This document shows, piece after piece, positions 1,634 through 11,057 of a stretch of DNA of 24,181 nucleotides. Each line of letters begins with the position of its first letter. The first letter of the stretch is position 1. This DNA is from a virus, in the IMG/VR virus record IMGVR_UViG_3300025625_000003, positions 1 to 24,181 of that record. One strand, given 5' to 3'. Both the position numbers and the translations under genes were made by a program. Under the pieces are notes generated by a model. The model had not been told where the DNA came from. It did not search any database and was given only the letters and a program-made list of their open reading frames with translations.

Positions 1634-2020
1634 ATGGCGTTCAACAAGCAGGATTACCCCCCGGAGTGGCAGGAGATTCGCGCGCGCATCTTAGCGCGAG
1701 CGGGGAACTGCTGTGAAGGCAGCCCGTTGTACCCCGACTGCCGCGCGAAGAACCACGAGCCGCACCCGGTGACCGGGAGCCAGGTCGTCTTGACCATCAG
1801 TCACTATCCGGACCCTAATAAGGCTAACTGCGACGACGCCAACCTCGCGGCCAATTGTCAACGCTGTCACCTGTCAAAAGACCGTCCGCACCATCTCGCG
1901 GTGCAGCGCCGCAACCGGCAGGCGAAACGCGACCGCATTCAACCGCGGCTGCCGCTGGAGGAGGAACGCGGCGTTGTGCGGAGAACTATTTCCGGGTATG
2001 CTCATGGTGAGGAGAACTGA
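1634..2020 (+). CDS. HNH endonuclease
   Basis: The 128-residue product carries an HNH-type core. A Cys pair (NCCEGSPLYPDCRAK, about residues 25-39) is followed by an LTISHYPDPNKANCDDANL segment holding the first His and the Asn, and by ANCQRCHLSKDRPHH, the closing Cys-x-x-Cys-His and basic helix. This order is characteristic of phage HNH nucleases, in which the beta-beta-alpha-metal fold nicks or cuts DNA; many sit near terminase modules and aid packaging, others are homing enzymes. ATG 1634 is chosen because the domain begins directly after it; a GGGAG 8 bases upstream is a modest SD. The basic C-terminal tail probably contacts DNA. The stop TGA overlaps an ATG at 2020. Confidence 0.8.
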   Translation: MAFNKQDYPPEWQEIRARILARAGNCCEGSPLYPDCRAKNHEPHPVTGSQVVLTISHYPDPNKANCDDANLAANCQRCHLSKDRPHHLAVQRRNRQAKRDRIQPRLPLEEERGVVRRTISGYAHGEEN

Positions 2021-2076
2021 TGGCTGCCCTCAACGCTGACCCGCCATCGGCCCATTCTTGGGGGAAATCCGCTTGA
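2020..2076 (+). CDS. 18-codon leader ORF, or the true N-terminus of the peptidase in another frame
   Basis: ATG 2020 overlaps the HNH stop (TGATG) and follows a strong GAGGAG Shine-Dalgarno at 2009-2014, a better initiation site than any in the next gene's frame. It reads MAALNADPPSAHSWGKSA and stops at TGA 2074-2076, which overlaps an in-frame TTG (2073) of the peptidase. The tract GGGGGAAA at 2060-2067 lies just before the stop. A -1 slip on GGG there, or a one-base error in the G run, would join this start to the peptidase frame (continuing GEIRLNPDP). It is either a coupled leader peptide or the displaced 5' end of the peptidase gene. Confidence 0.45.
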   Translation: MAALNADPPSAHSWGKSA

Positions 2077-2996
2077 ACCCTGACCCCGTTTTCCTTTCTG
2101 GTTTAGTGAAGCCTCCGCCCGACTGGGGCGGAATGGGCGCGACGCCGATCTCCCTCGATCCGCGAGATTTCGATCTGCGCTCGATGCCGAAAGTAGCGGC
2201 CCAGTTGGCCGCCGGAGTGCCGGCGGCGGCCGATCTGACCGGGCTCATCCGGGGCCCCATCTACGATCAAGGCAGCACGTCCGCCTGTGTGGCCTATAGC
2301 ACCGCTGGGCTCTGCTCGATGGATGATGTCGCGGAAACCGGCCAGTGGCAGACAATGGACGCGCGGGCGATGTACCAGGCGGCGGGCGGGACAGGCCAGA
2401 ATGGCGTGGATACGAGATTAGTGCTGCAGCAAGCGACGGACAACGGTGTGCCGCTGTTGGGCCTGAGTAATCGGGTGAAGGTCATGAAGAGCTACGCTTT
2501 CGTGCCGCAGCAGCCAGGGGTCTTTCGCGACACGATCAAAGCTGCCCTCGCGGCGGAACAGCCGCTGGTCATCGCCCTGCTGCTGCCGACGGACTGGGGC
2601 TGGCAAAGCGGCCACGGCAGCGTCACCTCGGGATACCACCAGGTGTGCGCTTGTGGATATACAACGGATGGATACCTGGTTTGCCTCAATAGCTGGGGAG
2701 CGAGTTGGGGGCACAACGGCGTCGGGAGCGTCAGCTTTGACTACCTCGAACAGCAGAATCTCTTGAATGGCTACGTGTTCAGTTACACCGTGAGCCCGAT
2801 AGCTATTCCGAGCCCCACGCCGCTCCCTGTGCCGCAGCCCCAGCCGCTCCCGCAGCCGCTGCCGCAGCCGCAGCCGCTGCCGCAGCCGCTCCCGCAGCCG
2901 CTCCCGCAGCCCCCGCCGCCGGCGGGGCTCGGCGTGACGATCAACGTGCAGACTGATGACGGCCGCCGCGGCGCCGCGCGGCTGACGGTTTCTTGA
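2073..2996 (+). CDS. Papain-like (C1 family) cysteine peptidase with Pro/Gln/Leu tail
   Basis: The catalytic pattern of C1 peptidases is complete. Counting from TTG 2073, these are oxyanion-hole Gln66 and nucleophile Cys72 (QGSTSACVAYS, the same 6-residue spacing as papain), His189 (SGYHQVCACGY) and Asn206 in LNSWGASWG. The DPRDFDLRSM segment before it is typical of bacterial homologues. After the domain comes a ~38-residue PQPLPQP repeat, probably an extended spacer, and a short beta-rich end (GVTINVQTDDGRRGAARLTVS). No signal peptide or membrane helix is evident. The start is uncertain: TTG 2073 is stop-coupled to the 2020 ORF, TTG 2058 lacks an SD, ATG 2133 is internal, and a frameshift from 2020 is possible. 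It could act in lysis, entry or on a host protein; the substrate is unknown. Confidence 0.85.
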   Translation: MNPDPVFLSGLVKPPPDWGGMGATPISLDPRDFDLRSMPKVAAQLAAGVPAAADLTGLIRGPIYDQGSTSACVAYSTAGLCSMDDVAETGQWQTMDARAMYQAAGGTGQNGVDTRLVLQQATDNGVPLLGLSNRVKVMKSYAFVPQQPGVFRDTIKAALAAEQPLVIALLLPTDWGWQSGHGSVTSGYHQVCACGYTTDGYLVCLNSWGASWGHNGVGSVSFDYLEQQNLLNGYVFSYTVSPIAIPSPTPLPVPQPQPLPQPLPQPQPLPQPLPQPLPQPPPPAGLGVTINVQTDDGRRGAARLTVS

Positions 2997-3002
2997 GGAA
3001 AG

Positions 3003-3047
3003 CCTCCGGTTCGGAGGAGGAGACGAAACATCGCTCTCATTGAGAGC
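3003..3047 (+). promoter_or_regulatory. Twin perfect hairpins in the 3' flank of the peptidase gene
   Basis: Two stem-loops of identical geometry (6-bp perfect stem, 3-nt loop) stand 15 bases apart: CCTCCG-GTT-CGGAGG at 3003-3017 and GCTCTC-ATT-GAGAGC at 3033-3047. The first begins 7 bases after the peptidase stop. Neither is followed by a U-tract, so they are more likely mRNA-stability, processing or translational elements than intrinsic terminators. The first stem contains a GGAGG motif, though no good start codon lies at the right distance from it. Confidence 0.5.
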
Positions 3048-3065
3048 AGAGAGGCGGGTAGTCCC

Positions 3066-3563
3066 GTGCCTTTGACGACCAACGAGCAATTAGTTGACAC
3101 TGTAAATTCCGGAAATTTGAAGATCCTGGCAGACATGAGTCAGACGGCCATGGGCCTCAGTGTCCAGAACAGTGTGGCGAACCAACAGTATATCCAGAGC
3201 ATCGTCAACGCCAACCTGCAGAACGGCTTGACCATCGCCCAGAACGCGATGCAGAATGGGATGCAGATCGCGCAGGCGGTCACGGTCCGCTCGCTCCGCA
3301 TGGCGCTGGATACCAGTGCCGAGGAGGCGGTGGCCTTCACGAAGCAGATCGGCTCGGATATTCAGGACAAGTTAACGAATCTGGAGGCCACGTTATCGGC
3401 GGCGCAGCAATTCGAGAAGACGGCCCTCACCTCGCCGCCGCAGACCGGGACGGGCGGCGCGTTCGGCTCCGACAGCGGCTCTGCGCTCGCGCAGCAACTG
3501 GCGAATATGCAGGCGCTGCTCTCCGACCTGTCCGCCCGGCTGGCTACCGCGAAGATTGCCTGA
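3066..3563 (+). CDS. Helical Asn/Gln/Ala-rich protein, faintly RebB ('killing trait')-like
   Basis: This 165-residue protein starts at GTG 3066, with only a weak GGCGGG site upstream. Residues ~5-85 form a helical, Asn/Gln/Ala/Met-rich region (NEQLVDTVNSGNLKILADMS, then VANQQ, NANLQNGLTIAQNAMQNGMQ). The opening N-x-Q-x-x-D-x-V...N-x-K, the later Q-Q and the 'A..NGM.IA' pattern recall RebB-type proteins, small helical subunits of R-bodies (coiled protein ribbons). This is pattern memory only, and a phage structural or coiled-coil protein is equally possible. Residues ~95-165 are helix (QDKLTNLEATLSAAQQFEK), a Gly/Ser/Thr linker and a second helix. No cysteines and no membrane segment. Its stop overlaps the next start (TGATG), linking it to the L,D-transpeptidase-like gene. 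Confidence 0.6.
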   Translation: MPLTTNEQLVDTVNSGNLKILADMSQTAMGLSVQNSVANQQYIQSIVNANLQNGLTIAQNAMQNGMQIAQAVTVRSLRMALDTSAEEAVAFTKQIGSDIQDKLTNLEATLSAAQQFEKTALTSPPQTGTGGAFGSDSGSALAQQLANMQALLSDLSARLATAKIA

Positions 3564-4093
3564 TGCACGCGGTGACGCAACTCGGCCTGCACGATCTTCA
3601 CTGGGTGTTCGCGCGGGCGGCCCGCACGCTGAAAGCGTATGACAACGCCGGCCGCGAGGTCTTCGCCTGCGAAGCCAGGAACAGAACGACCGCCGACGGG
3701 CAACTCGGGCACTTCGGTAATTGTCCGCCGGGGGAATACGTCTTCGGGTACCCGGCCCCGAAAGGAACAGCGCCGTTCGGGCCGTGGTTCGTCCCGATCC
3801 ATGACGCGCCGGGCCATGACGCCGCCGCGGCGCACCACCGCGCCGGGCTCGGCTGGCACGGCGGCGGCAGCGGCCTCCAGGAGCCACTGCGGGCCATCCA
3901 GAGCCCCCCATGGATACCCACGCACGGCTGCTGGCGCAGTATCAACCGGGACCTGGAGCGGGGCGTGGCGCTGATCCACGCGACCCTGGTGGCGGGCGGC
4001 ATGCACTTCGTGACCGTCGAAGCTCCCGTGCCGGGGGAGGCGGCCGAGCCGGACGACTGGGGGCCGGCCGACGCGATCACCGAGGATGAGTGA
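3563..4093 (+). CDS. L,D-transpeptidase (YkuD)-like protein, possible wall-active enzyme
   Basis: The 176-residue product contains a PPGEYVFGYP segment (residues 55-64), like the substrate-loop TPxGxF of YkuD domains. It also has the catalytic-type motif: His99 in GWHGGGSG and THGCWRSINRD (residues 120-130) with His121, Cys123 and Arg125. YkuD enzymes use Cys in S/T-H-G-C to form or cleave L,D peptidoglycan crosslinks. The His-to-THGC distance (~21 residues) is slightly long but acceptable. No signal peptide is seen, as with many phage enzymes that need a holin or act from the virion. ATG 3563 overlaps the previous stop without a strong SD, suggesting translational coupling. Its neighbourhood with the peptidase suggests a lysis or wall-remodelling role. 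Substrate and reaction direction are inferred. Confidence 0.65.
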   Translation: MHAVTQLGLHDLHWVFARAARTLKAYDNAGREVFACEARNRTTADGQLGHFGNCPPGEYVFGYPAPKGTAPFGPWFVPIHDAPGHDAAAAHHRAGLGWHGGGSGLQEPLRAIQSPPWIPTHGCWRSINRDLERGVALIHATLVAGGMHFVTVEAPVPGEAAEPDDWGPADAITEDE

Positions 4094-4314
4094 TGCTGGT
4101 CGTCTGCAGGAATGCCGCGGCAGCCTTCGACCTCGCGGACAAAGCCGGCCGGGGCCGCGGCGCGGCGCAGGTGCGGTGTATGCCGGCCCGGCAGGTCCGC
4201 CTCCCGGGCGGCACGAACGTGCTGATTCCCCTGCGCTGGCTGGTGACGGTGCGCGGCCTGACGATTCGCCAGGAGCAGCGCCTCTTGCGCGAAGCGGGCC
4301 TTGACTCTGACTAG
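4093..4314 (+). CDS. Small basic protein, unknown function
   Basis: ATG 4093 overlaps the previous TGA (TGATG). The 73-residue product (MLVVCRNAAAAFDLADKAGR) has a beta-rich middle (AAQVRCMPARQVRLPGGTNV) and an amphipathic C-terminal helix (LTIRQEQRLLREAGLDSD). It has two cysteines, is net basic, and shows no membrane segment. No family was recognised. It overlaps the next reading frame by up to 14 bases. The case for a real gene rests on position and coupling, with no better competing frame over this stretch. Confidence 0.5.
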   Translation: MLVVCRNAAAAFDLADKAGRGRGAAQVRCMPARQVRLPGGTNVLIPLRWLVTVRGLTIRQEQRLLREAGLDSD

Positions 4315-4657
4315 CACGGTCCTGGCGCTGGTGGATCACGTCGCCGCCCTGGCGGCGGCCCACGTCAAACTGGTCAAACACAATGAGGAGGCGCACTTAC
4401 TCATGGCGACGCGAGCGGACCTGGACTCGGCGTTGACGCAGTTGGAGGCAGCCCTGCGCGCGACGGTCGCGACGATTGGCACGGCGGTCTCGGACCTGGC
4501 GGCGAAGGTGGAGCCCGCGATGGACATGGCGCCGGAGATGCAGCGCATCACGGCGGCGACCCAGATGCTGACGCAGTTGGCGGAGGCGGTCCAGGCGGCC
4601 GGAGTCGATGGGACGGGACTGGTGCCGCATCCGCCGCCGGCATGGCCGGCGCCTTGA
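4301..4657 (+). CDS. Alanine-rich coiled-coil protein, unknown function
   Basis: Counted from TTG 4301 the protein has 118 residues and is almost wholly helical, with heptad-like Leu/Ala/Val spacing (LDSALTQLEAALRATVATIG; MAPEMQRITAATQMLTQLAE), so a coiled coil or helical bundle is likely. It ends in a Pro-rich tail (PHPPPAWPAP). The start is uncertain. TTG 4301 overlaps the previous gene; ATG 4403 sits 11 bases behind a good GAGGAGG at 4385-4391 and would give 85 residues. The N-terminal part of the long form (VLALVDHVAALAAAHV) is mildly hydrophobic but not a clear membrane helix. It could be a spanin-like or structural accessory protein, but nothing shows this directly. Confidence 0.5.
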   Translation: MTLTSTVLALVDHVAALAAAHVKLVKHNEEAHLLMATRADLDSALTQLEAALRATVATIGTAVSDLAAKVEPAMDMAPEMQRITAATQMLTQLAEAVQAAGVDGTGLVPHPPPAWPAP

Positions 4658-4693
4658 GCCACTCCGGCTAAGGCGAGCAAGGAAACGTTTTGG

Positions 4694-5452: not shown

Positions 5453-6090
5453 GCACCCCGGAGTTCACGGTCGAATATAGGGCGCCCGCTGAGCTTTCGC
5501 CACACCCGCTGAACTTTCGCCGGCACCCGTCCCCCCAAAAGGATGCCCTGGCAGCTTCGCTCCGGGAGCATTCATGGTTGGCGGCCCCGATCTGGAATCG
5601 TCGCACGGGGCGCTTACTTGACGGCCACCTGCGGGTGGAGATCGCGGCTGCTGACGGACAGCCGGCTATTCCCGTGCGGGTGATCGACGTTTCCGAGGAG
5701 CAGGAGCGCCGCATCCTGGCTTCGTTCGATCGCATCGGATCGCTGGCCTTGCAGGACGAGCAGCAGCTTGCGGCGCTCTTGCAGGAATTGGCAGCCACGG
5801 AAGCAGGACTGCCGGCGGGCTGGGAGCAAGGGGACCTGGACGCACTGCTGGAAGAGTTGGGACCACCAAATGTCTCCTTTAAGGAGTTTGATGAAGAGAG
5901 TTTCCAGGGCATTGAGGATGAATGGACAGAGGTGAAGTTCCGCGTGCCCCTCGGAACGGTGCCCGTTATTGAACAGCAGGTAGAACGTATCTGTGCTGTG
6001 TGCGGCTTCAAGGAGAAGGCTAAAGGCATGGCACTTGAACGGTTAGTGCAGCTGGCGGCGACGGTGACTGATGATGAACTCGCGGGATGA
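5449..6090 (+). CDS. ParB-like nuclease-domain protein
   Basis: From GTG 5449 (CAGGAGGAGA site upstream, stop-start overlap GTGA) the protein has 214 residues. Residues ~10-105 match the ParB/Srx-like fold as found in phages: HPLNFRRHPSPQ, then LREHSWLAAPIWNRRTGR and the box LLDGHLR (residues 56-62), then IPVRVIDVSEEQERRILASF. In this phage branch the domain usually sits beside or fused to a DNA methyltransferase, and a methyltransferase follows here, overlapping by 20 bases. The C-terminal ~70 residues (VKFRVPLGTVPVIEQQVERI, CAVCGF, AL.RLVQLAATV) are a separate small domain also seen at the end of such phage proteins. Likely roles are DNA binding or NTP-dependent clamping, or nuclease activity coupled to modification. 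The C-terminal half is AT-richer than the genes before it. Confidence 0.8.
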   Translation: MSTPEFTVEYRAPAELSPHPLNFRRHPSPQKDALAASLREHSWLAAPIWNRRTGRLLDGHLRVEIAAADGQPAIPVRVIDVSEEQERRILASFDRIGSLALQDEQQLAALLQELAATEAGLPAGWEQGDLDALLEELGPPNVSFKEFDEESFQGIEDEWTEVKFRVPLGTVPVIEQQVERICAVCGFKEKAKGMALERLVQLAATVTDDELAG

Positions 6091-7036
6091 GCCGACTTTT
6101 ATTAGCCTGTTTAGTGGCTGTGGTGGCAGCTCCTGGGGTTACCAGATGGCCGGATACCGGGAATTACTGGCCGTAGAATGGAATGACGATGCAGTGATGA
6201 CATTCCGACTGAACTTTCCGGAGGTCCCTGTCCATCACGGGGACATTAAGTTACTGTCCGTTGCGCAGTGCCTGCAGTTGGCTGACGTGCAGCCAGGGGA
6301 ACTGGACGTATTAGATGGCTCACCGCCCTGTCAGGGATTCTCGACAGAAGGAAAGAATCGTTTATCTGACAGTCGTAATCAGTTGTTTCAGGAGTACTGT
6401 CGGCTGTTGCAGGGACTGCAGCCCAAAGCATTCATCATGGAAAACGTTCCCGGAATGATCCGGGGCAAGAACCGGCTTATTGCAAAAGTCATCTTCAAAG
6501 AGTTAGTTGCATGCGGCTATCATGTCCGGATGCAAGTCATGAATGCCATGTACTTTGACGTGCCACAGTGCCGACAGCGGCTTATTTTTGTCGGGACGCG
6601 CCATGATCTGGGAGTATTGCCCAGTCATCCGCGCGCATTATCACGGCCGCGAACGGTGGCAGAGGCACTGCACGGCGTTCCGGCTGATCCAACAGCTTTC
6701 ATCGTCGGTAAGCACACCCGAATCTTTCAGGCGATGAAGAGCGTTCCTGCCGGTCAGCGTCGGCCGGGACATCACTCTCATCTGCGGCTGCCGCTGCACA
6801 GACCGTCACCGACGCTGATGGCTGGTCTGATTGGGGGTATTTATCATTATTGGCATCCCACGGAGCACCGGACGCTGACCTTCAATGAGGCAAAGCGTTT
6901 GACCTCATTTCCTGATCACTTCCAACTGGTAGGAAGCCCCAGTGCTCGTTGGCAACAGATCGGCAACAGCGTGCCGCCGCTCTTCATGAAGGCCATCGCA
7001 TTACACGTCAAGGATGAGATCCTGTTCCGGTGTTGA
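6071..7036 (+). CDS. C5-cytosine DNA methyltransferase
   Basis: This 321-residue protein transfers a methyl group from S-adenosylmethionine to C5 of cytosine in a target sequence. Motifs are complete and ordered: I FSGCGGSSWG (residues 14-23, SAM binding), IV SPPCQGFS (84-91, catalytic Cys87), VI ENV (124-126), VIII QCRQR (166-170), a target-recognition region about 180-265, IX LTFNEAKRLTSFP and X IGNSVPP (297-303). The length is typical of compact single-domain enzymes. ATGs at 6071 and 6074 are both possible starts inside the end of the ParB-like gene. No paired restriction endonuclease is seen, so it is probably an orphan protecting phage DNA. One 60-base stretch (6181-6240) counts 53% GC against 67% in the capsid gene (14341-14400), suggesting recent acquisition. 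Target specificity cannot be read. Confidence 0.95.
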   Translation: MMNSRDEPTFISLFSGCGGSSWGYQMAGYRELLAVEWNDDAVMTFRLNFPEVPVHHGDIKLLSVAQCLQLADVQPGELDVLDGSPPCQGFSTEGKNRLSDSRNQLFQEYCRLLQGLQPKAFIMENVPGMIRGKNRLIAKVIFKELVACGYHVRMQVMNAMYFDVPQCRQRLIFVGTRHDLGVLPSHPRALSRPRTVAEALHGVPADPTAFIVGKHTRIFQAMKSVPAGQRRPGHHSHLRLPLHRPSPTLMAGLIGGIYHYWHPTEHRTLTFNEAKRLTSFPDHFQLVGSPSARWQQIGNSVPPLFMKAIALHVKDEILFRC

Positions 7037-7611
7037 GAGAAACGCAGCGTCACCAGTCTGCTTTTGAGCTTTGGCACAGTACAGACCGAAGTTATGCCCA
7101 AGTCCAGCAGGAGTTTGGCATTTCACAGACATCAGTGATGAAGTGGGCCAGGGAGTTCCACTGGCATGACCGTGCCGACGGCCGCGATGCTGAAGCAGCA
7201 CGGTTAGCTGAGCGAGAGGCCATCAAAAGACGCGCGGCTGTCCTTCAAGAGCAGCGCAAAGCCGGGGAATTACTCCGCCGCCGGGGCACCGAGCACTTCG
7301 TCAAGCACGAGATCGAGCAGGCGGGTGACGCGATCCGCGCCATCAAGGAAGGCGTGGCGCTGGAGCGATCGGCGGAAGGAATGCCCTCCTTCGTTTTGGA
7401 ATTGATGAGCTTAACCGACGATGAACTCCGCAGTGAACGCGAGCGTGTACTCCGACGACTTCCGGCTGTTACTGATCGAGCGCCTGCTCTCGGAGCGGGA
7501 GAAGCAGCAGCCGCAGACGAAGCAGGCAGTGACGGTGAAGGGGCCGATCCCGTTCTGCCCGCACGTTCCGACCCCGCGGCAGGCCCAATTTCTGGCCCTG
7601 AGCGGCCGTGA
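7030..7611 (+). CDS. terS: Terminase small subunit (TerS)
   Basis: The 193-residue protein opens with an HTH unit (residues ~10-50: HQSAFELWHSTDRSYAQVQQ, EFGISQTSVMKWAREFHWHD). Long charged helices follow (AARLAEREAIKRRAAVLQEQ; HFVKHEIEQAGDAIRAIKEG), the usual TerS layout of a DNA-binding head and oligomerisation helices that recognise the packaging site and present DNA to the large subunit. It lies directly before the TerL ATPase. It starts at GTG 7030 or TTG 7033; the latter makes a TTGA overlap with the methyltransferase stop. The first ~220 bases share the AT-richer composition of the methyltransferase. The last ~60 residues are low complexity and overlap the TerL frame by up to 190 bases, so they may be dispensable. 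Confidence 0.75.
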   Translation: MLRETQRHQSAFELWHSTDRSYAQVQQEFGISQTSVMKWAREFHWHDRADGRDAEAARLAEREAIKRRAAVLQEQRKAGELLRRRGTEHFVKHEIEQAGDAIRAIKEGVALERSAEGMPSFVLELMSLTDDELRSERERVLRRLPAVTDRAPALGAGEAAAADEAGSDGEGADPVLPARSDPAAGPISGPERP

Positions 7612-8254
7612 GGCGCTGTTTGGCGGGGCCGTCGGCGGGGGAAAGAGTGATTGCTTACTGATGGCAGCCCTCCAGTACGTGGAAACCCCGGGCTACGCCG
7701 CGCTGCTCTTTCGGCGCACCTATGCCGACTTATCGCTGCCGGGAGCGCTGATGGACCGGGCGGGGGACTGGCTGCGGCCCACGGCGGCACGGTGGCACGA
7801 GTCAGAGAAGACCTGGACCTTCCCCTCCGGCGCTTCGCTGACGTTCGGCTATTTGGAGAATGAGAATTCGAAGTACCGGTATCAAGGGGCAGAGCTCCAG
7901 TGTTGTGCGTTCGATGAGCTGAGCCAATTCAGTGAGAGTTCCTATCGCTACCTGTTCAGCCGCCTGCGCCGCAAAGAAGGCGTGCCCGTCCCGATCCGGA
8001 TGCGGGCTGCCAGCAATCCCGGCAGCGAATGGGTCAAGCAGCGTTTCATCGTCGAAGGGGAGGCAGCCGGCCGCGTCTTTGTGCCGGCGCGACTTGCTGA
8101 CAATCCGTTTCTGGATGCCGATGAATACCGGCTGGCGCTGGCTGAGCTCGACCCGGTGACGCGCCAGCAGTTGCTCGAAGGCGATTGGGACGTGCGGCCG
8201 GAAGGGAAACTCTTCAAGCGGGAGTGGTTTCCCCTTATCGAGGCAGCCGATTGA
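7421..8254 (+). CDS. terL: Terminase large subunit, ATPase half (TerL-N)
   Basis: This 277-residue protein holds the packaging motor ATPase. It shows a TPRQAQFLAL adenine-side segment, Walker A GGAVGGGKS (residues 68-76), Walker B CCAFDE (161-166, Asp165/Glu166) and the coupling motif AASNPG (196-201). It then has the segment LLEGDWDVRPEGKLFKREWF that normally leads into the nuclease domain. It stops right there: the RNase H-like nuclease half is absent and appears as a separate ORF at 8722-9240. Together the two sum to about 449 residues, a normal TerL size. No strong SD precedes ATG 7421; GTG codons at 7433, 7445, 7529 and 7535 are alternatives. The stop overlaps the next start as TTGA. Confidence 0.9.
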   Translation: MNSAVNASVYSDDFRLLLIERLLSEREKQQPQTKQAVTVKGPIPFCPHVPTPRQAQFLALSGREALFGGAVGGGKSDCLLMAALQYVETPGYAALLFRRTYADLSLPGALMDRAGDWLRPTAARWHESEKTWTFPSGASLTFGYLENENSKYRYQGAELQCCAFDELSQFSESSYRYLFSRLRRKEGVPVPIRMRAASNPGSEWVKQRFIVEGEAAGRVFVPARLADNPFLDADEYRLALAELDPVTRQQLLEGDWDVRPEGKLFKREWFPLIEAAD

Positions 8255-8448
8255 GGACAGCGATTTTCCCGCCGATCACGTTGGACGCGGGTCGCCCCGA
8301 CTGGACGCCGTGCGACAAGCTGGCGCGGCTCGTCGCGCTCTCTCGCCGGGTCGGCTATGGGACCCAAGCCGATGCCGATCCGCAGGACCTGGCGGAAGAG
8401 AAAGCTCTGTTCGCGGAGCTTTGCGCGCTGCTCAAGGAGGTCAGATGA
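8251..8448 (+). CDS. Small protein between the terminase halves
   Basis: TTG 8251 overlaps the TerL-N stop (TTGA). The 65-residue product begins RTAIFPPITLDAGRPDWTPC and ends with two helices (KLARLVALSRRVGYG; LAEEKALFAELCALLKEV). Its stop overlaps the next ATG (ATGA). No intein, homing-nuclease or intron motif is present, so it is not an obvious splicing element. No family was recognised. Lying between two parts of one enzyme and translationally coupled to both sides, it could bridge or regulate the split terminase, but that is conjecture. Confidence 0.55.
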   Translation: MRTAIFPPITLDAGRPDWTPCDKLARLVALSRRVGYGTQADADPQDLAEEKALFAELCALLKEVR

Positions 8449-8729
8449 GCGCGAAAGAAGCCGGCAGCATCGCGGTATTGACCCGCGAGCGGGATCAGCA
8501 GCGCCGGCGGGCTGAATTACTGGCAGAGGCTTTGCACGGCAGCTACGGCACTGAGCATCGCTGGCGGTTGGCGTGCGAGAAAGCGGAAGCCGAGCGCGAT
8601 GCGGCGCGGTGCTGGGCGATCCGGCTCGTGCGAATGGACTGGCAGGACGAGCTGGCTGCGGAAGACATCGAAGCCATGCCGGATTGGCTGGCTGCCGCGG
8701 CCCAAACGGAGATGAAGCGGGATGGCTAG
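8445..8729 (+). CDS. Coiled-coil-like small protein between the terminase halves
   Basis: ATG 8445 is preceded by a perfect AAGGAGG (8434-8440), one of the better ribosome sites in the window. The 94-residue product is helical and highly charged (LTRERDQQRRRAELLAEALH; RLACEKAEAERDAARCWAIR) and ends with an acidic helix (AAEDIEAMPDWLAAAAQTEM). It resembles small phage accessory helical proteins but no named family. It overlaps the start of the TerL nuclease ORF by 8 bases. Its strong SD suggests it is made in quantity. Confidence 0.6.
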   Translation: MSAKEAGSIAVLTRERDQQRRRAELLAEALHGSYGTEHRWRLACEKAEAERDAARCWAIRLVRMDWQDELAAEDIEAMPDWLAAAAQTEMKRDG

Positions 8730-9240
8730 GCACGTGCGCTTCTGGGACTTATCCAGTACGTTGACGGGAGACTATACGGCTGGAATCAAGATGGCGAAGG
8801 ACGGCCGTCTGTACACCGTGGAGCATCTCATCCATGGCCGGTGGACACCCTTTGATCGCGACCAAGTGATCCTCCAAACCGCGCAGGCGGACGGTATCGG
8901 CTGCGAGGTGGTGATCGAGCAGGAGCCGGGCTCTTCGGGCGTCTCGCAGGTCGACTCGCTCGTCGCGCTCCTGGCCGGCTACAAGGTGAGCGGGAAGCGC
9001 AGTACCGGGGACAAGGTCACGCGGGCGGCACCGCTGGCCTCGCAGGCGGAGGCGGGGAACGTGCGGCTGGTGAACGGTCCCTACGTGCGGGCTCTGCTCG
9101 ATGAAATTTGCAGCTTCCCCACGGAGGGCGTCCATGACGATATCGTCGACGCCATGAGCGGAGCATTCCTGGTATTATCAGCAAGACCGGAGAACCCGCT
9201 GGCGGGGCTGGTGAGTTTCACGAAGGCGAGGGGCTGGTAA
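8722..9240 (+). CDS. terL: Terminase large subunit, nuclease half (TerL-C)
   Basis: The 172-residue product is the RNase H-like nuclease domain that cuts concatemeric DNA during packaging. It begins RHVRFWDLSSTLTGDYTAG with the first acidic residue Asp9, has VVIEQEPGSSG (acidic Glu66 or Glu68) and ends with GVHDDIVDAMSGAF (Asp139/Asp140 and Asp143). The conserved TGDKVTRAAPLASQAEAG and RLVNGPY segments are also present. This is exactly what normally follows the WFP segment where TerL-N stops. ATG 8722 has a GGAG site about 10 bases upstream. The catalytic residues look intact, so it is probably functional, working as a separate chain with TerL-N rather than as a decayed remnant. Confidence 0.9.
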   Translation: MARHVRFWDLSSTLTGDYTAGIKMAKDGRLYTVEHLIHGRWTPFDRDQVILQTAQADGIGCEVVIEQEPGSSGVSQVDSLVALLAGYKVSGKRSTGDKVTRAAPLASQAEAGNVRLVNGPYVRALLDEICSFPTEGVHDDIVDAMSGAFLVLSARPENPLAGLVSFTKARGW

Positions 9241-9250
9241 AGGAGAAATC

Positions 9251-9403
9251 ATGCCGATGAACGTCGCATGGCCGGCTGTTTCGTTGGGCTCAGTGATCGC
9301 CCTGGTCGTCCTGCTGCTGGCGATTGTGTTCGTGGTGATGGGCAAGCTGCCGCTGCTGGACGGGACGCTCTTGGGTATGCTCGCGCTGGCGAGGTTGACC
9401 TAA
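9251..9403 (+). CDS. One-helix small membrane protein
   Basis: This 50-codon gene lies between TerL-C and portal, with an AAAGGAGA site immediately upstream of ATG 9251. The product MPMNVAWPAVSLGSVIALVV continues as a single hydrophobic helix (about residues 10-30, ending VVMG), then a short loop and a second less hydrophobic stretch (LPLLDGTLLGMLALARLT). It has no cysteines and few charges. Size and helix would suit a small holin-like, antiholin-like or membrane-anchoring protein, but no family is recognisable and location next to head genes argues neither way. Confidence 0.65.
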   Translation: MPMNVAWPAVSLGSVIALVVLLLAIVFVVMGKLPLLDGTLLGMLALARLT

Positions 9404-9425: not shown

Positions 9426-11057
9426 ATGACACTCAAGGAACGCGCTCGTCACTGGCTCGGCGTCAAAGACGCGCCCCCGCCGCCGGAACCGCCCCGCGCT
9501 GCGCCCTCCACGCCCACCCGTCCCGGCTCACACGTAGTCGAGAAGCGGTTTCGCTTGTCTGAGGACAACCCGACCGTCAACTATCTCCAGGGCTTGACCA
9601 TCCTGGCCCCCTTCGACCCGGAGAACCGCTGGCGCAACCTCCAGCTCGACGAGAACAGCCTGGACACGATGTCCTCGGCGCAGATCCTGGAACTCCTCTG
9701 CGACCTGTCCCCGGAGATCAGCCGCGCGCATTGGGACTTGCTCCGTCTGTGTAACCCTGGCTGGCAGTGTCACGCCTATAAGCCGGGCACGGAGACGGAG
9801 GACAAGAAGGCGCAGGCGTGGCTCGATCAGTTTCTGAACGGGCAACTGCGAGGCCTCTACGGCTCACCCGACGTGCCGATCAACCGCATTTACACGAACG
9901 CTTTCCTGCGCGGCGCGTTCATGGCGGAACTGGTGCTGGACAACCGGGGGAAGGTCCCGTTGGACATCGCCGTCCCGGACGCGCAGTGGACCTACTTTCG
10001 GATTGCGGTCGACCCGCAGCGCGGGCCCGTCTGGCAGCCGTACCAGTTCCAGCACGGCCGCCCGGTGCCGCTGATCCTGGAGACGATCCGCTATATTCCG
10101 TTAGACCCGCTTCCGGCGTCCCCCTACGGGCGGCCGATGTGCTCGCCGGCCCTCTTCACCACCCTCTTCTCGCTCGGCTTGCTGCACGACCTGAAGCGCG
10201 TCGTGCAGCAGCAGGGCTACCCGCGCATCGACGTGGCGATCAAGCTGGAGGAGTTGGCGAAAGCGATGCCGGCCGATTTAGCCGACGATCCGGCGCAGTA
10301 TCAGGACTGGCTGAACGCGTTTGTGGCCTCAGTCGGGAAGGCGTACGCGTCTCTTGAGCCCGATGACGCCTTCGTTCACAGTGACGTGATCGAGGTCAAC
10401 CGCCCGATCGGCACCCTCGACAGCAGCAGCCTGGGCGCGATGGACGGCCTGACGCATTTCCTGGAGCGCCAGGTCGTCCGGGCGCTGAAGACCATGCCGC
10501 TGCTGATGGGCGTGAACGAGGCATCCAGCGAGACGCACGCGAACCGCCAGTGGGAGGTCCACGTCGCCGGCATCCGCTCGGTACAGCGGCTGCACGAGTC
10601 GCTCATGGAACACATGCTCTCCGTGGGCTTGCGCGTGCAGGGCATGCAGGCCACGGTCGAGTTCCGCTTCGATGAACTGCGCAACAGCGAGCTTTTGCGG
10701 GACGGCCAGGTCGAGCAACTTCGGACGCAGAACGCCGCGCTGCAGTACGATAGGGGGTATTTATCGCAAGACGAAGCTTGCCAGCTAGCTACAGGAAAAC
10801 CCAAAGCAGACCAGGCCGCCCCTCGTATCGAAGGAGTTGGCACGCAAGGAGGAAGCACCCCACCTCCCTCTTCACCAGGATCACCCGCAGCTATTGAACC
10901 TGAACCGGGCAGCAAGAAGTCTATGGCTGGAAACGGACGACGAATGTCGTCAGAGTCGGTCGGGATACCTGATGGGGTCGATGGCCTGATCAAAGAATCT
11001 GATCAGGCCATGCCCACGAACGGGCATCCCGACCTGCTGGAGGCACTGCGGCGATGA
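9426..11057 (+). CDS. Portal protein
   Basis: This 543-residue protein occupies the portal position between terminase and prohead protease and has portal-like features. It has an N-terminal Pro-rich lead, then SSAQILELLCDLSPEISRAH, AYKPGTETEDKKAQAWLDQF, RIYTNAFLRGAFMAELVLDN and the wing/clip-type text YIPLDPLPASPYGRPMCSPA. A long helical part follows (LTHFLERQVVRALKTMPLLM, NEASSETHANRQWEVH). The portal forms the dodecameric ring through which DNA enters. ATG 9426 has a GGAG site 7 bases upstream. The last ~110 residues (after QYDRGYLSQDEACQLATG) are Pro/Ser/Gly-rich, AT-richer at DNA level, and contain strong inverted repeats. The exact portal subfamily cannot be fixed by eye. Confidence 0.85.
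   Translation: MTLKERARHWLGVKDAPPPPEPPRAAPSTPTRPGSHVVEKRFRLSEDNPTVNYLQGLTILAPFDPENRWRNLQLDENSLDTMSSAQILELLCDLSPEISRAHWDLLRLCNPGWQCHAYKPGTETEDKKAQAWLDQFLNGQLRGLYGSPDVPINRIYTNAFLRGAFMAELVLDNRGKVPLDIAVPDAQWTYFRIAVDPQRGPVWQPYQFQHGRPVPLILETIRYIPLDPLPASPYGRPMCSPALFTTLFSLGLLHDLKRVVQQQGYPRIDVAIKLEELAKAMPADLADDPAQYQDWLNAFVASVGKAYASLEPDDAFVHSDVIEVNRPIGTLDSSSLGAMDGLTHFLERQVVRALKTMPLLMGVNEASSETHANRQWEVHVAGIRSVQRLHESLMEHMLSVGLRVQGMQATVEFRFDELRNSELLRDGQVEQLRTQNAALQYDRGYLSQDEACQLATGKPKADQAAPRIEGVGTQGGSTPPPSSPGSPAAIEPEPGSKKSMAGNGRRMSSESVGIPDGVDGLIKESDQAMPTNGHPDLLEALRR
10961..11031 (+). repeat. Nested inverted repeats at the 3' end of the portal gene
   Basis: A perfect 12-bp inverted repeat, ATGGCCTGATCA (10981-10992) and TGATCAGGCCAT (11000-11011), has a 7-base loop. 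It is followed by TGCCC-ACGAAC-GGGCA (11011-11026). An outer CGGGAT/ATCCCG pair (10961-10966 and 11026-11031) brackets both. The region is in-frame coding sequence with no U-tract. It may be a protein-binding palindrome or an mRNA structure affecting the coupled next gene at 11054. Confidence 0.6.

Follow-up and report, generated by a model that had tools for sequence, protein, structure and literature searches.

The large terminases (TerL) of T4 (gp17), D6E, Sf6 and G20c/P74-26 are single chains in which the ATPase and nuclease domains are connected by a covalent hinge. The complementary surface between the two domains of T4 gp17 exceeds 1000 square angstroms, and a cut at the linker leaves both ATPase and nuclease activity in place while abolishing translocation (PMC3012670; PMC9958956). 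Extra DNA inside terL is found in Bastillevirinae, in cyanophage Mic1 and in several of the relatives retrieved here, where it is an intron or an intein and a single chain results after splicing. TerL is also encoded by two genes in cultured actinophages, a precedent that we draw from PMC9030533, in which Nyceirae is cited as carrying terL in two ORFs, and from GenBank annotation. Gordonia phages (Nyceirae, Meyran, Ewald, Dogfish, Phishy) and Arthrobacter phages (Faja, Isolde, Sakai, Gorpy) carry adjacent ATPase-domain and nuclease-domain genes next to TerS and portal, which overlap or lie ~10 bases apart with nothing between them; those of Nyceirae match neighbouring stretches of phrog_9 (74-469 and 476-666). 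The statement in the original prediction that introns or inteins account for most known split terminases is thus incomplete. In the literature, no paper was found under the phrase 'split terminase'.

We analysed a window of 24,181 bases, the whole stretch of DNA examined from an uncultivated virus record, which contains a packaging operon in the order TerS, TerL-N, ORF2, ORF3, TerL-C, small ORF and portal. TerL, of the phrog_979 type, is here carried by two chains with their own starts and stops, without a hinge, whereas in psiM2/psiM100-like and metagenomic phages of phrog_979 it is a single uninterrupted chain. TerL-N ends with EGKLFKREWFPLIEAAD, and the 467 bases that separate it from TerL-C are filled by ORF2 and ORF3. 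The joints are exactly as they had been described, TTGA between TerL-N and ORF2, ATGA between ORF2 and ORF3, and an 8-base overlap between ORF3 and TerL-C. The same boundary is split in a second uncultivated, metagenomic phage, IMGVR_UViG_3300035704_000007 (66,945 bases), referred to as L002. The coordinates of all these features are collected in Table 1.

Table 1. Features of the packaging locus in the window and of the split TerL in L002.
Feature	Position	Strand	Evidence or remark
TerS, small terminase	7030..7611	+	phrog_6299 terminase small subunit, 1.9e-11; L002 TerS 59% identical
TerL-N, large terminase ATPase chain, 277 aa	7421..8254	+	Terminase_6N; phrog_979 150-422; AlphaFold2
Walker A GGAVGGGKS, TerL-N residues 68-76	7622..7648	+	invariant or near-invariant, 50 aligned sequences
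Walker B acid and catalytic glutamate, TerL-N D165-E166	7913..7918	+	50-sequence alignment
Coupling motif ASNP, TerL-N residues 197-200	8009..8020	+	alignment
ORF2, 65 aa, TTG start	8251..8448	+	coding-like GC; without known relatives
ORF3, 94 aa, AGGAGG upstream	8445..8729	+	homologue in L002, 3' of TerL-C
TerL-C, RNase-H-fold nuclease chain, 172 aa, N-terminus MARHVRFWDL	8722..9240	+	Terminase_6C; phrog_979 433-602; AlphaFold2
TerL-C nuclease acid D9	8746..8748	+	near-invariant
TerL-C nuclease acids E66 and E68	8917..8925	+	invariant in A2 alignment
TerL-C nuclease acids D139, D140, D143	9136..9150	+	invariant in A2 alignment
Small ORF between TerL-C and portal	9251..9403		
Portal protein, next gene of the packaging operon	9426..11057	+	phrog_3753 portal, 3.2e-42; L002 portal 59% identical
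L002 TerL-N	1987-2826		74% identical to window TerL-N
L002 insert ORF, 62 residues, Cys pairs, zinc-finger-like	2823-3011		ATGA overlap
L002 TerL-C	3034-3561		65% identical to window TerL-C

We verified the identity of the two chains by family and by fold. TerL-N is a Terminase_6N (6.5e-10) and TerL-C a Terminase_6C (1.1e-12) in Pfam, and both match phrog_979 side by side, on the adjoining stretches given in Table 1, which bears out the cut at the ATPase/nuclease boundary that had been read from the sequence. The ATPase motif set and the RNase-H nuclease acids of a Terminase_6/phrog_979 TerL are thus both present, distributed over two ORFs rather than placed in one polypeptide. Across 50 aligned sequences, the Walker A lysine K75, the Walker B pair D165-E166 and the NP of the coupling motif are all intact in TerL-N; in TerL-C, E66, E68, D139, D140 and D143 are invariant and D9 is near-invariant, so that the nuclease chain does keep its acidic residues, as had been proposed. 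A sequence-only search for solved structures returned nothing useful. When each chain was modelled alone with AlphaFold2 (pLDDT 89.1 for TerL-N and 91.6 for TerL-C), the predicted fold of TerL-N gave D6E, Sf6 and P74-26 TerL ATPase as its best PDB matches, and that of TerL-C was closest to the terminase nuclease domains of PhiV-1, RB49, T4 (gp17) and G20c. The linker from the WF of the ATPase domain to the R-x-W-D of the nuclease domain is most often 13 residues long in single-chain relatives; summed over both chains, it has 11 residues for the window and 13 for L002, indicating that the cut sits in the hinge and that nothing structured was lost. Judged from sequence and predicted folds, both chains look functional. 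A 3-residue deletion after the coupling motif is common to the window and L002; we rejected it as a mark of the split, as it is also found in seven single-chain sequences.

We then compared the locus with its relatives. Both domains lie in one ORF at 213 of the 283 retrieved loci (many of them overlapping); among internal loci, only the window, L002 (retrieved repeatedly) and L026 have them distributed over different ORFs. The intein-bearing terL of L026 displays a deletion and a frameshift at the ATPase/nuclease junction (~4380-4620) with loss of the first nuclease acid, and probably represents either a dead copy or an error of assembly. That leaves the window and L002 as the only contigs with this split among the retrieved loci, and no third member came to light in scans of viral contigs and of genomes, nor in 400 genomes from the phylum to which one match belongs. 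Both halves have homologues in the single-chain TerLs; TerL-N of the window is 52-53% identical to methanophage sequences and up to about 67% to other single-chain contigs. The window and L002 group as sisters in trees of both chains (N, quick tree, SH-aLRT 98; C, FastTree, support 1.0), and the simplest reading of these placements is that the split arose once, in their common ancestor. Differences between them at codon positions 1/2/3 are 0.23/0.18/0.43 for TerL-N and 0.30/0.23/0.55 for TerL-C, that is mostly at third positions, as expected for genes held by selection. The idea of a settled two-chain terminase, as opposed to a recent break, is thus well supported, L002 being split too and both halves being under purifying selection. 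In both split phages, TerL-C has diverged somewhat further than TerL-N predicts, though within the spread of the other sequences, and a faster evolution of TerL-C after the split was rejected as no more than a weak trend. Five single-chain relatives (L029, L031, L032, L033 and L092) carry long in-frame insertions at the TerL P-loop, which are probably inteins.

The two small coupled genes announced for the gap are present, and their GC content by codon position (0.68/0.50/0.79 for ORF2 and 0.71/0.51/0.77 for ORF3) matches that of their neighbours (0.66/0.47/0.78 for TerL-N), so that on coding statistics both are probably real genes. Together with the sharing of the split with L002 and the purifying selection, this neighbour-like profile indicates that the split is more than chance. 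ORF2 has no family match in Pfam or PHROG and no relatives anywhere searched, viral contigs included; ORF3 has none in cultured phages. A comparison of gene order with related metagenomic phages, which had been proposed as a check, showed that the split recurs in L002, but with a single unrelated gene as the insert. No similarity was seen between the gaps of the window (467 bases) and of L002 (207 bases), whose local score of 20 compares with a shuffled mean of 19, whereas the ORF3 region matches L002 DNA located 3' of TerL-C (score 64, shuffled maximum 39), where a homologue sharing the motif LLA(E/D)ALHGSYGTEHRW lies among the small ORFs between TerL-C and portal. L002 has several such ORFs in this interval (3562-4685), two of them with paired cysteines resembling zinc ribbons; the window has one. 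The simplest reading is that the space from TerL-N to portal gathers small cargo genes, 5' or 3' of TerL-C alike. We conclude that the gap in the window is an ordinary intergenic site taking up small genes, and not an intron, an intein or a recoding signal.

We consider it likely that the locus encodes a two-gene TerL whose chains reassociate non-covalently, the small ORFs being cargo. One polycistronic message would yield a complete TerL-N and a complete TerL-C, and translational coupling of all four ORFs is suggested by how closely their stops and starts overlap. TerL-N would form an oligomer and pump the DNA; the chains would most likely reunite at the portal, without a covalent link, with TerL-C docking on TerL-N to make the initiating and headful cuts. 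ORF2 and ORF3 would have entered a permissive intergenic site, as small genes have also done in L002 between TerL-C and portal. From the locus we infer that both chains are made, reassociate and form a working motor. Note that there is no assurance that two chains make a working motor, given that the linker cut in T4 gp17 stops translocation; a natural one would need a stronger non-covalent contact between the chains, or else a nuclease used for cutting only.

The latter possibility leads to a different reading, in which TerL-N packages DNA alone and TerL-C is recruited only to cut, with no TerL-like particle rebuilt. Linear DNA is still packaged by T4 nuclease-site mutants (PMC3012670), the nuclease domain of phi29-type motors is vestigial and inactive (PMC9410871), and each half of TerL is confidently predicted to fold by itself. 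However, translocation is lost when the T4 domains are separated, and the halves remain encoded together in both split phages, so that we regard this reading as unlikely. The original prediction had also raised the possibility that the inserted proteins tether or regulate the halves of the motor; this would concern chiefly ORF3, as a helical protein that would substitute for the covalent hinge by joining the ATPase chain to the separate nuclease chain. ORF2 and ORF3 are closely coupled in translation with both halves, and ORF3-type proteins, which look charged, helical and able to bind, have so far been found only in the window phage and L002, both split. This restriction is nevertheless weak evidence for a partner role, because the two phages are sisters with other shared genes and the sharing of ORF3 is expected by descent. 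Moreover, L002 carries the unrelated zinc-finger-like ORF between the halves, its ORF3 homologue stands after TerL-C, ORF2 is without a relative, and the actinophage two-gene TerLs have nothing between the ATPase and nuclease genes. Since the inserts differ between the split phages, the tethering idea is left unsupported, and we hold it to be quite improbable, for ORF3 as for the inserted proteins in general.

Explanations that deny two separate chains, or a working terminase, fare worse against the same evidence. That terL is broken or mis-assembled, in a defective phage, might be suspected because the window is a metagenome contig and because the terL of L026 is damaged at this very junction; but a second contig has the same boundary with a different insert, every catalytic residue is kept in both halves, and the window-L002 changes are concentrated at third codon positions, which makes such damage very unlikely. 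An intron spliced out to give a single TerL chain is likewise very unlikely: the halves join seamlessly as protein and terL genes of other phages contain introns (PMC11878797), yet the inserts are unrelated and of different length, ORF3 has a free-standing counterpart elsewhere in L002, ORF2 and ORF3 have coding GC periodicity, and both split phages give TerL-C a start codon of its own. In addition, Rfam searches of the window and L002 contigs at permissive thresholds gave only chance matches, with no intron or near-threshold family, and neither a recognisable intron (Rfam) nor an intein (Pfam, PHROG) was matched in the gap, in agreement with what had been claimed from the sequence. An intein was rejected on the stop codons and separate ORFs, and on the lack of any intein family in ORF2 and ORF3 in Pfam and PHROG. 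Finally, recoding by frameshift or ribosome bypass could in principle fuse the chains, and a -1 frameshift has been proposed for terL of Microbacterium phage vB_MoxS-R1 (PMC9030533); with a 467-base gap that contains two complete ORFs, start codons that are separate, and a gap of another length in L002, this is hardly credible.

The split lies at the same domain boundary in the actinophages and in the window, but the TerL family is phrog_9 in the former and phrog_979 in the latter, and two genes stand between the halves only in the window. From the different family and the empty actinophage junctions, the split in the window is probably independent, and it appears that at least two TerL families gave rise to two-chain terminases independently. 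A two-gene TerL is already known; new here, among the records surveyed, are its occurrence in the phrog_979 lineage and the genes lodged between the halves. The split is of interest because T4 TerL is reported to lose DNA translocation when cut at this linker: whether the terminase engine needs a covalent hinge to its nuclease is a mechanistic question, and natural two-chain terminases are test systems for whether the nuclease domain takes part in the power stroke or is only a tethered cutter. For annotation, TerL-based markers can show up as two short genes.

Other features were observed around the packaging genes. TerS and TerL-N overlap in different frames, by 191 nt in the window (7421-7611) and 179 nt in L002 (1987-2165). 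Over the first 58 codons of TerL-N, differences between the window and L002 are 0.26/0.21/0.26, and the absence of the usual third-position excess is consistent with dual coding by TerS and TerL-N. The ORF that overlaps the TerS start (6071-7036) has, by eye, the look of a cytosine-5 DNA methyltransferase. Further 5' of the packaging genes, the translation of 2058-2996 resembles, also by eye, a papain-like cysteine protease with a Pro/Gln-rich tail, and the ORF at 488-958 consists mostly of repeats of the Gly-Asp-Gly-Tyr type.
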